Shown here piece by piece: positions 28,617 to 63,935 of a stretch of 64,000 nt of DNA (position 1 is its first letter; each line of letters starts with the position of its first letter). A model generated the notes under the pieces. That model was not told the origin of the DNA. It saw nothing but the letters and a program-made list of their open reading frames with translations, and ran no database searches. A program made the translations under genes and the position numbers. Source of the DNA: Pseudomonas putida (GTDB lineage: Bacteria; Pseudomonadota; Gammaproteobacteria; Pseudomonadales; Pseudomonadaceae); assembly GCF_005080685.1 (NCBI RefSeq), contig NZ_CP039371.1, positions 6,431,887 through 6,495,886 of the forward strand, in the 5' to 3' direction.

Positions 28617-29588
28617 CTACCCCTGTACGCAGCGCTTTAGCCCATCCTGCAGTGCCTGCTGGTTCTGAGCTTGATCGAAAATCAGCTCGATGCGCGAATC
28701 CCTGCGCCAATCGCTGGACTGCCAGGCCGGTAGCTCTCCATTCAAGCCATTAAAGGACTGCCACCCCCCCGCGCTGTGGATAACTCCTTTGGCCCGTTTC
28801 CAGGGCAAGTCCTGCAGAAACGCTTGCAACAGCTGTGGATCCAATTGCCGACTCGGGTGCCAGCGCCAGCCGATACTCCAGCCTCCCTCACCTGCCTCGG
28901 CCAGGCAAATCGGCACCTGTGGATTTGTCCACAGGGCGCCGGCAGCCACTGCGCCGCTATCCACAGCCCAAGCGGGTTCCACAGCAGTTTCGACAACACC
29001 TGTGGATGAAACTGGAAGGAGGTCGAATTCCACCTTTCCCTGCTCGGTCCAGATCGCTGGAACATCGCCTATCTGCTTATTTATCAACAGCTTGGAACAT
29101 TCATCCACAGCCTCGCTCTTGTTCACAACAGCCATCCCGGCCACCGCCAGGGCTTCACGCTGAGCCTCCGGCAGCGGCTCGCCACGTCCCATCGCCTGGG
29201 CATCCAGCACAATCACCAAAGGCTGCACCACCAACACGCCCAGCCACGGTGCCTGGCCCAACTGCCGCAGCAGTTGCAACGGATGCCCAAGCCCCGACGG
29301 CTCGATGAACAGCCGGTCCGGGCGAGCCTTGCGCAACAGGCGCCCGAGCCCGACCTGGAACGGCATGCCGTTGACGCAGCACAGGCAACCCCCCGCCACT
29401 TCACCGATGGCGATCCCGTCCTCGTCGCGGCTGAGCAAGGCAGCATCCAGCCCGACCTGGCCGAACTCGTTGACCAGCACTGCCCAACGCTCGCCCTGCG
29501 GGCGCTGCGCCATCAACTGCCGGATCAGGCTGGTCTTGCCGGCACCCAAGGGTCCGGCAATCACGTGGGTGGGGATGTTTTGCAGCAT
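28617..29588 (-). CDS. COG0523 (CobW-like) metal-chaperone GTPase
   Basis: A 323-aa G3E GTPase: Walker A GPLGAGKTSLIRQL, the metal-binding GGCLCC (CxCC) motif, and NKSE in the G4 position. The C-terminal domain is short. It lies downstream of a DUF1826 gene and a ZigA-type GTPase on the same strand, in a Zur-linked neighbourhood, so it probably helps deliver zinc under zinc limitation. Start at 29588 (MLQNIPTHVIAG) is the first one fitting the family. The coding DNA contains exact and near DnaA boxes (28775 and neighbours). Confidence 0.85.
   Translation of the reverse strand: MLQNIPTHVIAGPLGAGKTSLIRQLMAQRPQGERWAVLVNEFGQVGLDAALLSRDEDGIAIGEVAGGCLCCVNGMPFQVGLGRLLRKARPDRLFIEPSGLGHPLQLLRQLGQAPWLGVLVVQPLVIVLDAQAMGRGEPLPEAQREALAVAGMAVVNKSEAVDECSKLLINKQIGDVPAIWTEQGKVEFDLLPVSSTGVVETAVEPAWAVDSGAVAAGALWTNPQVPICLAEAGEGGWSIGWRWHPSRQLDPQLLQAFLQDLPWKRAKGVIHSAGGWQSFNGLNGELPAWQSSDWRRDSRIELIFDQAQNQQALQDGLKRCVQG

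Positions 29589-57055: not shown

Positions 57056-57059
<4 letters not shown>
56409..57059 (-). CDS. rsmG: 16S rRNA (guanine527-N7)-methyltransferase
   Basis: A 216-aa SAM methyltransferase with the motif [18 protein letters not shown] at about 75 and [20 protein letters not shown] before it. It methylates G527 of 16S rRNA; loss gives low-level streptomycin resistance in other bacteria. Its start overlaps the mnmG stop by four bases. Confidence 0.96.
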
Positions 57060-58951
<1,892 letters not shown>

Positions 58952-59076
58952 GCACCTCGTGCCTGTTTTGCGAATAGAGAAGATAAGCGGACAAGTATAG
59001 GGACTTAACCCCCCTCAAAGGAACCTTCTGCGCAAAATTTGACCAGGCTGTGGATGAATGGCAGACAACAGAAATC

Positions 59077-59268
59077 AAAGAAGAGAAATTTAAAAAAGCT
59101 TTATTTTTATGTTTATTCTTATGCACAGGCCTATCTGTGGATAACGCTCTGGATCCCTTTAATAACATGGTGTACAGAGAAATTAAACCCTGTGGTCTAG
59201 TGACCCTGGGGGCTATGGATAACGCCGTTGAGCCTGTGGATTAAATGCCTGTTTACCCACAGGCAGGA
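59077..59268. other. oriC-like segment between mnmG and mnmE (degenerate copy of oriC)
   Basis: This gap carries an AT-rich block (59080-59120) and DnaA boxes: TTATGCACA (59119), TGTGGATAA (59136), and one-mismatch boxes at 59214, 59235 and 59253. From 59136 it aligns without gaps to oriC from 63661; over 130 positions I count about 82 identities, and boxes fall at the same offsets (36, 99 and 117 bases). The flanking 59269-59400 holds further near-boxes (TTATCAACG, TTTTCCACA) and no gene. Confidence 0.7.
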
Positions 59269-59410
59269 TTGTCCTCAGAAAAAAAGCCCTGTTATCAACG
59301 GGGCTGAAGGCGACTTTTCCACAGACCTCCCGGGTGACTTTTCCCTCCTGTGCATGAAAAATCTTGAAGCACTTTTCCTTTCCACCTCCCAGGTGAACAA
59401 CTCACAGGCA

Positions 59411-59439
59411 AAAAAAAGCCGCTCCCGAAGGAGCGGCTC
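59411..59439 (-). terminator. Terminator of mnmE
   Basis: GCCGCTCC and GGAGCGGC (59418-59425, 59430-59437) form the stem with a CGAA loop; on the minus strand it is followed by seven T residues, 23 bases after the mnmE stop. Confidence 0.9.
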
Positions 59440-59461
59440 TGTGGCAGCCAACGTCTGTGGA

Positions 59462-60832
59462 TTATTTTCCGATGCAGAAGCTGGAGAAGATGCGTCCCAG
59501 CAAGTCATCGGAGCTGAACGCACCGGTGATCTCTCCCAGCGCCTGCTGCGCCTGCCGTAGATCTTCGGCCAGCAGTTCACCCGCACCCGCCAGGGTAAGC
59601 TGCGCACGACCATGCTCCAGGTGCGAACTGGCCTGGCGCAGGGCATCCAGATGCCGCCGCCTGGCGCTGAAACCGCTCTCGGCGGTCTGTTCATAACCCA
59701 TGCAGGCCTTGAGGTGATCGCGCAGCAGTTGCAGGCCCTGGTCGTCGCCCTTGGCACTCAAGGTGATGGTGACATGGCCGTCATCGCACTGTTCGAGCCC
59801 TACCTGCTCGCCACTGAGGTCGGCCTTGTTGCGAATCAGCGTAACCTTGGCCGCCTCTGGCCGTTGGTCGAGAAACTCTGGCCACAGGGCAAAAGGGTCG
59901 TCGGCCTCGGGCGCCGTCGAGTCCACCACCAGCAGCACACGATCCGCTTCGCCAATGGCCTTGAGCGCGCGTTCCACGCCAATTTTTTCCACATGGTCGT
60001 CGGTATCGCGCAGACCGGCGGTGTCGACCACATGCAGCGGCATGCCGTCGATGTGGATATGTTCGCGCAGAATGTCCCGGGTGGTGCCGGCGATATCGGT
60101 GACGATCGCCGCCTCGCGGCCAGCCAGCTGGTTCAAGAGGCTCGATTTGCCGGCATTGGGACGGCCGGCGATGACCACGGTCATGCCGTCACGCAGCAAG
60201 GCGCCCTGGCCTGCCTCACGCTGGACTGTGGACAACTCCGCGCGCACGGCATCGAGCATCGACAGCACGTGACCATCGGCGAGGAAGTCGATTTCCTCCT
60301 CGGGGAAGTCGATCGCCGCTTCAACGTAGATGCGCAGCGCGATCAATGCCTCGGTCAGGCTGTGCACACGCTTGGAGAACTCGCCCTGCAGCGAACGCAA
60401 GGCGTTGCGGGCTGCCTGGCTGGAGCTGGCCTCGATCAGGTCGGCGATGGCTTCGGCCTGGGCCAGATCGAGCTTGTCGTTGAGAAACGCACGCTCGCTG
60501 AATTCGCCCGGACGCGCCAGGCGGCAGCCCACTTGTACACAGCGTTGCAGCAGCATGTCCAGGACCACCGGGCCGCCATGACCCTGCAGTTCGAGCACGT
60601 CTTCGCCGGTGAATGAGTTGGGCCCCGGGAAGAACAGCGCGATGCCTTCGTCCAGCACCAACCCCTGCTCGTCGCGAAACGGCCCATAGTGGGCATGGCG
60701 TGGCGTCAGCGTACGGCCAGTGATCAACTGCCCGGCCTGGCTCGCCAGCGGTCCGGACAGCCTGACGATGCCGACCCCGCCGCGGCCCTGGGCGGTGGCG
60801 ATGGCAGCAATGGTTTCACGCACAGTGTTCAT
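59462..60832 (-). CDS. mnmE: tRNA modification GTPase MnmE
   Basis: A 456-aa protein: N-terminal folate-binding domain ([20 protein letters not shown]), a helical domain with an inserted G domain ([35 protein letters not shown]) and the C-terminal CIGK with the catalytic Cys. It works with MnmG on tRNA wobble uridine. Followed by a strong terminator. Confidence 0.97.
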
Positions 60833-63258: not shown

Positions 63259-63393
63259 TCAAATGGCCAGACGCTTACGGCCTTTGGCACGACGACGCGA
63301 CAGAACAGCGCGGCCGTTCTTGGTAGCCATACGGGCACGGAAGCCGTGGGTGCGAGCGCGCTTGATGGTGCTTGGTTGGAAAGTACGTTTCAT
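63259..63393 (-). CDS. rpmH: 50S ribosomal protein L34
   Basis: A 44-aa highly basic protein, [18 protein letters not shown] at the N-terminus and [12 protein letters not shown] at the C-terminus, matching L34 at full length. It is first in rpmH-rnpA-yidD-yidC and marks the left border of oriC. Confidence 0.97.
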
Positions 63394-63594
63394 GGCGTTG
63401 TTACCTGGGTTTGTCGACTACGGGCCGGAATGGCCCCCTTTTTAAGAGATCGGCGATTCTAGAGAAAGCAAGCCAATAGGTCAATTTCCAACCAACCTTT
63501 CCTTACTGGACGGTGTACAGGGAAGGCGAGCGATGAGCGCTGAATGGCATCAGGCCGAGAAGGGCTTGAAGACAGCACGCAGATCGACAAACAC

Positions 63595-63935
63595 TTAAAA
63601 AAAGAAGAGACATATAAAAGCTTTTCTGAAGAACTTATAGATCTTAGGTGGATAACCTTCTGTGGATAACTGGCTGTAGCCCTTTATCCACGAGCTGTAC
63701 AGAAATTTTAAACCTTGTCGGTAACAGGTGCTGCGCTTGTGCTGGACATGGGTAGAACCTGTGGATCGAATGGCTGTTTATCCACAGCCCAGTTATCAAC
63801 AGGCAGGCACCCAGGGTTGTGCATAGCCCTTATGGTCGGTTATCCACAGAGCTTATTCACATGGGCTAAAAGACATTTCGGTCGCTAAATGGCTGTTTTG
63901 TCGCGACTCCTAGCGTTTCCACATGTGGATAACTG
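63595..63935. other. oriC: Chromosomal replication origin oriC
   Basis: The rpmH-dnaA intergenic region. Exact DnaA boxes: 63661, 63778, 63840 and 63924 (TTATCCACA on either strand); TTATTCACA at 63853; near-matches at 63647, 63684, 63760, 63793 and 63819. An AT-rich stretch at 63595-63645 could be the unwinding element. This is where pseudomonad oriC is known to lie. The remaining bases (63394-63594 and 63936-64000) hold the rpmH and dnaA promoter regions; dnaA is outside. Confidence 0.93.

Follow-up and report, generated by a model that had tools for sequence, protein, structure and literature searches.

Organization of the locus

The window analyzed in this work, a stretch of 64,000 nt of Pseudomonas putida (assembly GCF_005080685.1, NZ_CP039371.1, positions 6,431,887-6,495,886, forward strand), ends just short of dnaA. 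Leftwards of dnaA lie rpmH (63259..63393), rnpA, yidC, mnmE (59462..60832), mnmG (gidA; 57056..58951), rsmG and parA/parB-like genes, all on the minus strand from rpmH onwards according to the list of open reading frames. The gene names were assigned from knowledge of the respective families; the mnmG product also matches MnmG of other genomes, the closest named one being that of Pseudomonas faucium (98%). Two intergenic regions of this neighborhood carry oriC-like features, one between rpmH and dnaA (approximately 63594-63861; oriC1) and one between mnmG and mnmE (approximately 59073-59323; the mnmG-side copy). Between 58000 and 64000 no Rfam family was detected at gathering scores, and a plasmid collection contained no DNA similar to the region. 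A terminator-like hairpin behind mnmE (59415..59440, minus strand) is a weak prediction, since one was found against 1.4 expected in shuffled sequences.

The mnmG-side copy starts with an AT-rich, putative unwinding element (59073..59122), which is the least stable of the 63,951 50-bp segments of the window. On the mnmG leader side of this element there is a plus-strand DnaA-like box, TGTGGATGA (59049..59057; one mismatch; genus consensus CTGTGGATAA), and on its other side an R1-like box, TGTGGATAA (59136..59144, plus strand), taken as offset 0. Further along the plus strand are a GTACAG motif conserved within the genus (59172..59177, +36), a DnaA-like box that is absent from oriC1, TATGGATAA (59214..59222, +78), and the box TGTGGATTA (59235..59243, +99), followed by two minus-strand boxes, one at +117 (59253..59261, plus strand reading TTACCCACA) and an R4-like one at +179 (59315..59323, plus strand reading TTTTCCACA). 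In oriC1, the AT-rich element (63594..63643; 18 segments of the 64 kb equally or more unstable) is followed by the R1 box TGTGGATAA (63661..63669, offset 0), GTACAG (63697..63702, +36) and TGTGGATCG (63760..63768, +99; two mismatches), all on the plus strand, and by two minus-strand TTATCCACA boxes, at +117 (63778..63786) and, R4-like, at +179 (63840..63848). Counting boxes with up to one mismatch, the densest cluster of the window starts at 63647 (seven in 250 bp), and the second densest at 59119 and equally at 59049 (six in 250 bp).

A third cluster of DnaA-like boxes lies at 28776-29140, 34.7 kb from oriC1 (allowing up to one mismatch, five within the 250 bp starting at 28925). Clustering of DnaA boxes around origins has been reported. 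Perfect boxes (TTATCCACA) numbered 102 in one genome (G000) against 12 for the reversed control, about 8-fold, and only three of the 102 fell between 1.75 and 5.6 Mb of its 6.6 Mb, a crowding around the origin. Among the first 100, in order, of the 133 boxes of G015, one lay between 1.68 and 4.11 Mb of 5.8 Mb; the survey also took in G018, among the matches listed.

Similarity of the mnmG-side copy to oriC1

A preliminary description of this DNA had called the mnmG-mnmE region a degenerate duplicate of oriC, on the grounds of a common start, AAAGAAGAGA, an ungapped match from TGTGGATAA onwards with about 82 of 130 identical positions, and equal offsets of GTACAG (+36), TGTGGAT (+99) and TTAYCCACA (+117). 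These observations were reproduced: the common start is present at 59077 and 63601, the ungapped match begins at 59136 and 63661 and comprises 83 of 133 positions on recounting, and the three motifs have the same offsets in both copies. Beyond them, a fourth common box was found, TTTTCCACA at 59315 and TTATCCACA at 63840, so that both copies have four DnaA boxes at 0, +99, +117 and +179 from R1. The two copies are also alike in possessing GTACAG and an AT-rich element, and in the order and orientation of these parts; they differ in that oriC1 has more perfect boxes and, in 26 of 56 genomes, a YTAGG motif.

The best local alignment (59077-59262 against 63601-63787) scored 70 with 2/-3/-5/-2 scoring, compared with a maximum of 30 among 1000 dinucleotide shuffles and with a mean of 34 and a maximum of 44 among 1000 shuffles in which every DnaA-like box (up to two mismatches) was fixed in place. 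With 1/-1/-3/-1 scoring the observed value was 50, against 18 and 33 for dinucleotide and box-keeping shuffles, respectively. The pairwise alignment that had been suggested as a check thus gave a similarity exceeding that of shuffled DNA with boxes, and for the window a mere coincidence between two AT-rich, box-containing sequences (70 against a shuffle maximum of 44) was ruled out. Across the genus, 32 of 55 genomes beat all of 60 box-keeping shuffles and 23 failed to, so that single-genome pairs are not always decisive. Judged by alignment, the mnmG-mnmE region is homologous to oriC1, the origin between rpmH and dnaA.

Gene conversion between the copies was considered and rejected. Pairs from the same genome outscored random pairs (2 of 20,000 permutations reached their value) but did not outscore pairs formed with the closest relative (Wilcoxon p 0.29), and since these crossed pairs score alike, the excess over random pairs reflects kinship.

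Conservation within the genus

The mnmG-mnmE region, whose conservation in other Pseudomonas had been proposed as a further check, was matched in 58 of 59 genus genomes (E ≤ 0.001, own genome included), in a few only weakly. With one genome lacking a match (G042) and another lacking the mnmG-side region (G041), mnmG-side counts refer to 57 genomes; dnaA-side regions were available from 56 (G041 included, G036 and G008 not) and both sides from 55. The four-box module scored 26-32 of 36 at the mnmG side in all 57 genomes. At the dnaA side, 55 of 56 genomes scored at least 26 and the last one 15. By this distribution, the two copies are an old pair.

Mean majority-base fractions in the genus were 0.893 for the AT-rich element of the mnmG-side copy (59077-59118) versus 0.843 for that of oriC1, 0.896 versus 0.907 for the DnaA boxes, and 0.721 versus 0.710 for the other core positions. 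As yardsticks, 4-fold sites gave 0.696 in mnmG and 0.609 in mnmE, and spacers gave 0.26 (tail of the mnmG-mnmE intergenic region) and 0.22 (left of oriC1), values that partly reflect poor alignability because gap-majority columns were scored zero. In 52 of 55 genomes the AT-rich element was less stable in the mnmG-side copy than in oriC1. Box numbers averaged 5.58 in the mnmG-side copy and 4.98 in oriC1 when one mismatch was allowed, and 1.07 and 2.93 when only perfect boxes were counted. The YTAGG motif at -17 of R1, where E. coli has TTAGG, occurred in 3 of 57 mnmG-side copies and 26 of 56 oriC1 regions; we take this motif to be part of the DnaA-trio element. As far as its accessible text goes, gammaBOriS gives a different motif as the trio of Pseudomonadaceae (PMC7174414). 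The term degenerate is not supported, given the lower stability of the AT-rich element and a conservation of element and boxes about equal to that of oriC1. The mnmG-side copy is weaker in two respects, the fewer perfect boxes and the rarity of YTAGG, and in these sequences it is not visibly decayed.

An insert of 3.8-5.3 kb separates the mnmG-side copy from mnmE in 18 of the 55 genus loci. The sole insert inspected (L042, 2555-6534) contains three open reading frames that by eye resemble an ECF sigma factor, a FecR-like regulator and a TonB-dependent receptor.

Distribution among relatives

In a family search covering 28 genomes, two of them from the same genus, all but one (27 of 28) had a mnmG-side module with a score of at least 24, and 23 of 24 dnaA-side regions reached the same score. 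Ten of 60 loci lacked rpmH and provided no dnaA-side region, and that of G228 was cut by a contig end. All 21 named Pseudomonadaceae had a module of 24-32 at the mnmG side, and the 15 of them with rpmH in the stretch had one of 26-34 at the dnaA side. In one family member (G237; L178, L304) the mnmG-side module has been lost, leaving an mnmG-mnmE gap of 244 bp, and the dnaA-side module kept; to judge from this natural loss, the mnmG-side module is not indispensable there, and the species lends itself to comparison.

Most members of the order outside the family have the module at neither side. Four of 28 reached a score of 22 at the mnmG side (G178, G202, G173, G195) and two of the 22 measured at the dnaA side did so (G178, G204), with G189 at 21; G202, G173 and G195 carry it at the mnmG side only and G204 at the dnaA side only. 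An MnmG tree grouped the family (98/55), with both modules throughout except in G237 and in the contig-end case; its deep nodes are weak, its bootstrap did not converge, and G178 and G204 require further events on it.

Profiles built from the genus copies found the other copy in the family with means of 83 and 54 bits, shuffled controls reaching at most 4.3. The oriC1 profile matched E. coli oriC end to end (24.6 bits), which a search with the mnmG-copy profile did not find; of the two profiles, that of oriC1 is also the better match to G202. The mnmG-copy profile matched the mnmG side of Pseudidiomarina (51.0), Shewanella (35.7) and Alteromonas (29.4). By blastn against E. coli genomes, the mnmG-side copy gave 114 records, which among the matches listed were pieces of 28-29 bases, and the oriC1 region gave no match.

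The layout of the mnmG-side copy is like that of E. coli oriC, which lies upstream of mnmG with its AT-rich element on the mnmG side. From R1 to the mnmG start there are 165 bp in E. coli and 185 bp here, and the facing R4-like box is at +180 and +179, respectively. Unlike E. coli oriC, the mnmG-side copy has differently spaced inner boxes, mnmE instead of mioC as neighbor and no YTAGG before R1, and it is not marked by GC skew as the main origin in Pseudomonas. At the mnmG side, a facing pair at 180 ± 2 was found in E. coli, in 20 of 21 named Pseudomonadaceae and in 9 of 19 other named gammaproteobacteria (Pseudidiomarina, one of two Shewanella, three Aeromonas, Salinivibrio, Vibrio, Colwellia and Alteromonas). 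One of 28 order members had it, and it was absent from the 40 others, most of them betaproteobacteria. At the dnaA side of the Pseudomonadaceae the pair was present in all 15 regions scored. Among the 19 other gammaproteobacteria a spacing of about 106, foreign to Pseudomonas, was as common as 180 ± 2. Taxon groups for this count were taken from the titles of the sequence records, and for L316 from MnmG identity.

Strand composition

The genes between the two sites run leftwards and would be on the leading strand if replication starts at oriC1 and on the lagging strand if it starts at mnmG. We used as statistic the 4-fold GC skew of mnmE and yidC minus that of flanking genes. In 55 Pseudomonas genomes it averaged +0.069 (sd 0.067), with one genome below -0.1; a strand-composition switch at the mnmG side was thus not found in this set, and for this reason we do not class the mnmG-side copy as a working main origin. 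P. aeruginosa marker-frequency data fit bidirectional replication from oriC (PMC6199493, in its accessible part), and resolving two sites 4.5 kb apart would presumably need finer mapping than is described there.

The statistic was -0.299 in Alteromonas, -0.238 in Colwellia and -0.19 in Salinivibrio, the reference in Alteromonas and Salinivibrio being mnmG/rsmG alone. Values were negative in 20 of 23 order members. Within the family, negative values were obtained for 18 of the 22 genomes in the family set, which ranged from -0.229 to +0.12, and for 7 of the 21 named Pseudomonadaceae, which makes the copy used in other genera of the family less clear. Across the order, the difference between module scores showed no significant correlation with the skew (rho -0.19, p 0.37; a skew value was missing for G176), and the same held for the family. 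Where mnmG and dnaA are about 39 and 20 kb apart (G202 and G195), the GC-skew minimum was within 1.1 and 3.1 kb of the mnmG start. The minimum was nearer the rpmH/dnaA side in G204, G223 and G178, at the mnmG side in G239, a member of the same family with both modules, and between the two sites in G189. Cumulative GC skew of the window alone is uninformative, since its minimum (43,394) falls at neither site. Taken together, strand composition suggests that Pseudomonas mainly uses oriC1, with exceptions among its relatives.

In G223 (L269-L271), dnaA and dnaN lie inverted about 23 kb from rpmH, and the module and skew minimum are still at the rpmH side.

Discussion

Pseudomonas aeruginosa is reported to have a second autonomously replicating origin, which may be the gidA (mnmG)-side locus, and Ogasawara and Yoshikawa reportedly discussed in 1992 box clusters near both genes, mnmG and dnaA, in P. 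putida. The preliminary description mentioned reports of a second replicating segment in Pseudomonas, and such a report does exist: according to the accessible part of Gao 2015 (PMC4403523), P. aeruginosa has two autonomously replicating elements (Yee & Smith 1990; Smith 1991), of which one origin is essential and the other was perhaps once functional (Jiang 2006). That case resembles ours in having a second oriC-like segment besides the dnaA-side origin, one of the two being non-essential there; it differs in the species, and the accessible part of Gao 2015 does not describe homology or ancestry of the pair. The place of the second origin is not given in the accessible parts of Gao 2015, PMC3642087, PMC6199493, PMC8203912 and PMC3909081. 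Within the same limits, the characterized oriC adjoins dnaA and dnaN (PMC3642087), the P. putida dnaA promoter region is cited as having 12 DnaA boxes (PMC8203912), and the predicted P. aeruginosa gidA promoter is stated, from unpublished data, not to be regulated by ParA/ParB (PMC3909081). A Pseudomonas with two origins is therefore already reported, and what is added here is the homology of the two regions, their retention and their probable ancestry. We found no description of the region as an oriC1 homologue or ancestral origin in the accessible literature, whose coverage omits decisive old papers and leaves such absence unproven.

Among other systems, datA-like titration sites share with the mnmG-side copy a DnaA-box cluster near the origin; datA is not known to have oriC architecture or an unwinding element. 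The bipartite origins of B. subtilis and H. pylori also have two box clusters near dnaA (Wolanski 2015, accessible part), their two parts forming one origin with one unwinding element, whereas here each cluster has its own.

We regard it as rather probable, on the sequence comparisons and strand composition above, that the mnmG-side region is a paralogous second oriC at the ancestral mnmG site, that the oriC1 copy took over, and that the old site has been kept as a standby or DnaA sink. The mnmG side would preserve an E. coli-type layout, with the putative unwinding element beside mnmG, then R1 and a facing R4-like box about 180 bp off. The ancestor would have had such an origin at mnmG, a copy of which would have reached the rpmH-dnaA side before the Pseudomonadaceae radiated and taken over initiation, the mnmG site being retained. 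We infer that DnaA may assemble on the mnmG-side box array and could open the AT-rich element, for example where this is a plasmid's only origin, and that in the chromosome the site may act as standby origin and origin-linked DnaA sink; oriC1, we propose, would normally win because it has more perfect boxes and YTAGG beside R1. Copying from the mnmG to the dnaA side followed by a change of use would be the simplest account. The history implied by calling the mnmG-side region a duplicate is then probably backwards, because E. coli oriC is on the mnmG side with the same orientation and R1-R4 spacing, which places the mnmG copy at the probable ancestral site. The accompanying suggestion of an ancestral or second origin fits well, since the region resembles an oriC, shares homology with the one beside dnaA and occupies the site of oriC in E. 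coli. A more specific version, in which the mnmG origin was copied about 4.5 kb away and the old one is under purifying selection family-wide as a working standby that fires when oriC1 is limited, is possible, though we would not expect it to hold.

Several observations count against the preferred explanation: the mnmG-copy profile misses E. coli oriC, module scores and skew show no significant correlation across the order, G239 and G189 do not fit, skew is negative in 18 of 22 family genomes, the 180 ± 2 pair occurs in only 1 of 28 order members, about 106 is the leading facing spacing in the 19 other gammaproteobacteria, order members outside the family mostly carry no module at either side, and G237 has lost the module. 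Among other readings, the likeliest, even if we think it rather unlikely, is a DnaA sink or regulator that binds DnaA, titrating it or tuning mnmG, and never initiates in the chromosome. Such a role would agree with the mostly imperfect boxes and missing YTAGG of the mnmG-side copy, with the strand composition favoring oriC1, with the DnaA-like box within the mnmG leader and with the clustering of perfect boxes around the origin anyway; yet a sink has no need of an AT-rich element, which is the best conserved part of the copy (0.893) and the least stable DNA of the window, nor of a box spacing fixed as in oriC1. Complete loss of use, with the former origin slowly decaying, seems improbable. 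One of the two P. aeruginosa origins is reported as dispensable and possibly once functional (in the accessible part of Gao 2015), the module was lost in G237 and perfect boxes are fewer, but conservation of the AT-rich element (0.89) and boxes (0.90) exceeds that of 4-fold sites of the neighboring genes (0.70 and 0.61), and all but one of the 28 genomes in the family search have kept the module.

The direction of copying might also be the reverse, with the dnaA-side origin ancestral, the mnmG copy a later duplicate, as the preliminary description held, and the E. coli-type mnmG origins independent or derived from it. Origins adjacent to dnaA are common in bacteria, G204 carries the dnaA-side module only, and the oriC1 profile is the better match to both E. 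coli oriC and G202, although active origins should resemble each other more closely whichever way the copying went. We consider this order of events unlikely because E. coli and 9 of 19 named gammaproteobacteria agree with the mnmG-side copy in position, orientation and R1-R4 spacing, because three genomes (G202, G173 and G195) have the module at the mnmG side only, and because the skew is negative in 20 of 23 order members. Convergence of unrelated DnaA-box clusters through common function, finally, was already disfavored and is very improbable: boxes and AT content do explain some of the similarity, with box-keeping shuffles averaging 34 against the observed 70, but not the collinear matches outside boxes, including GTACAG, the four equal spacings and the profile matches across the family.

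A single origin is the usual view for most bacterial chromosomes. Here, the probable old and new origin sites are adjacent and both conserved, and relatives exist with the module at one site only, which makes origin relocation testable. It could be asked in this family which features (YTAGG, the number of perfect boxes or nearness to dnaA) choose the origin, and what is gained by keeping a second one.
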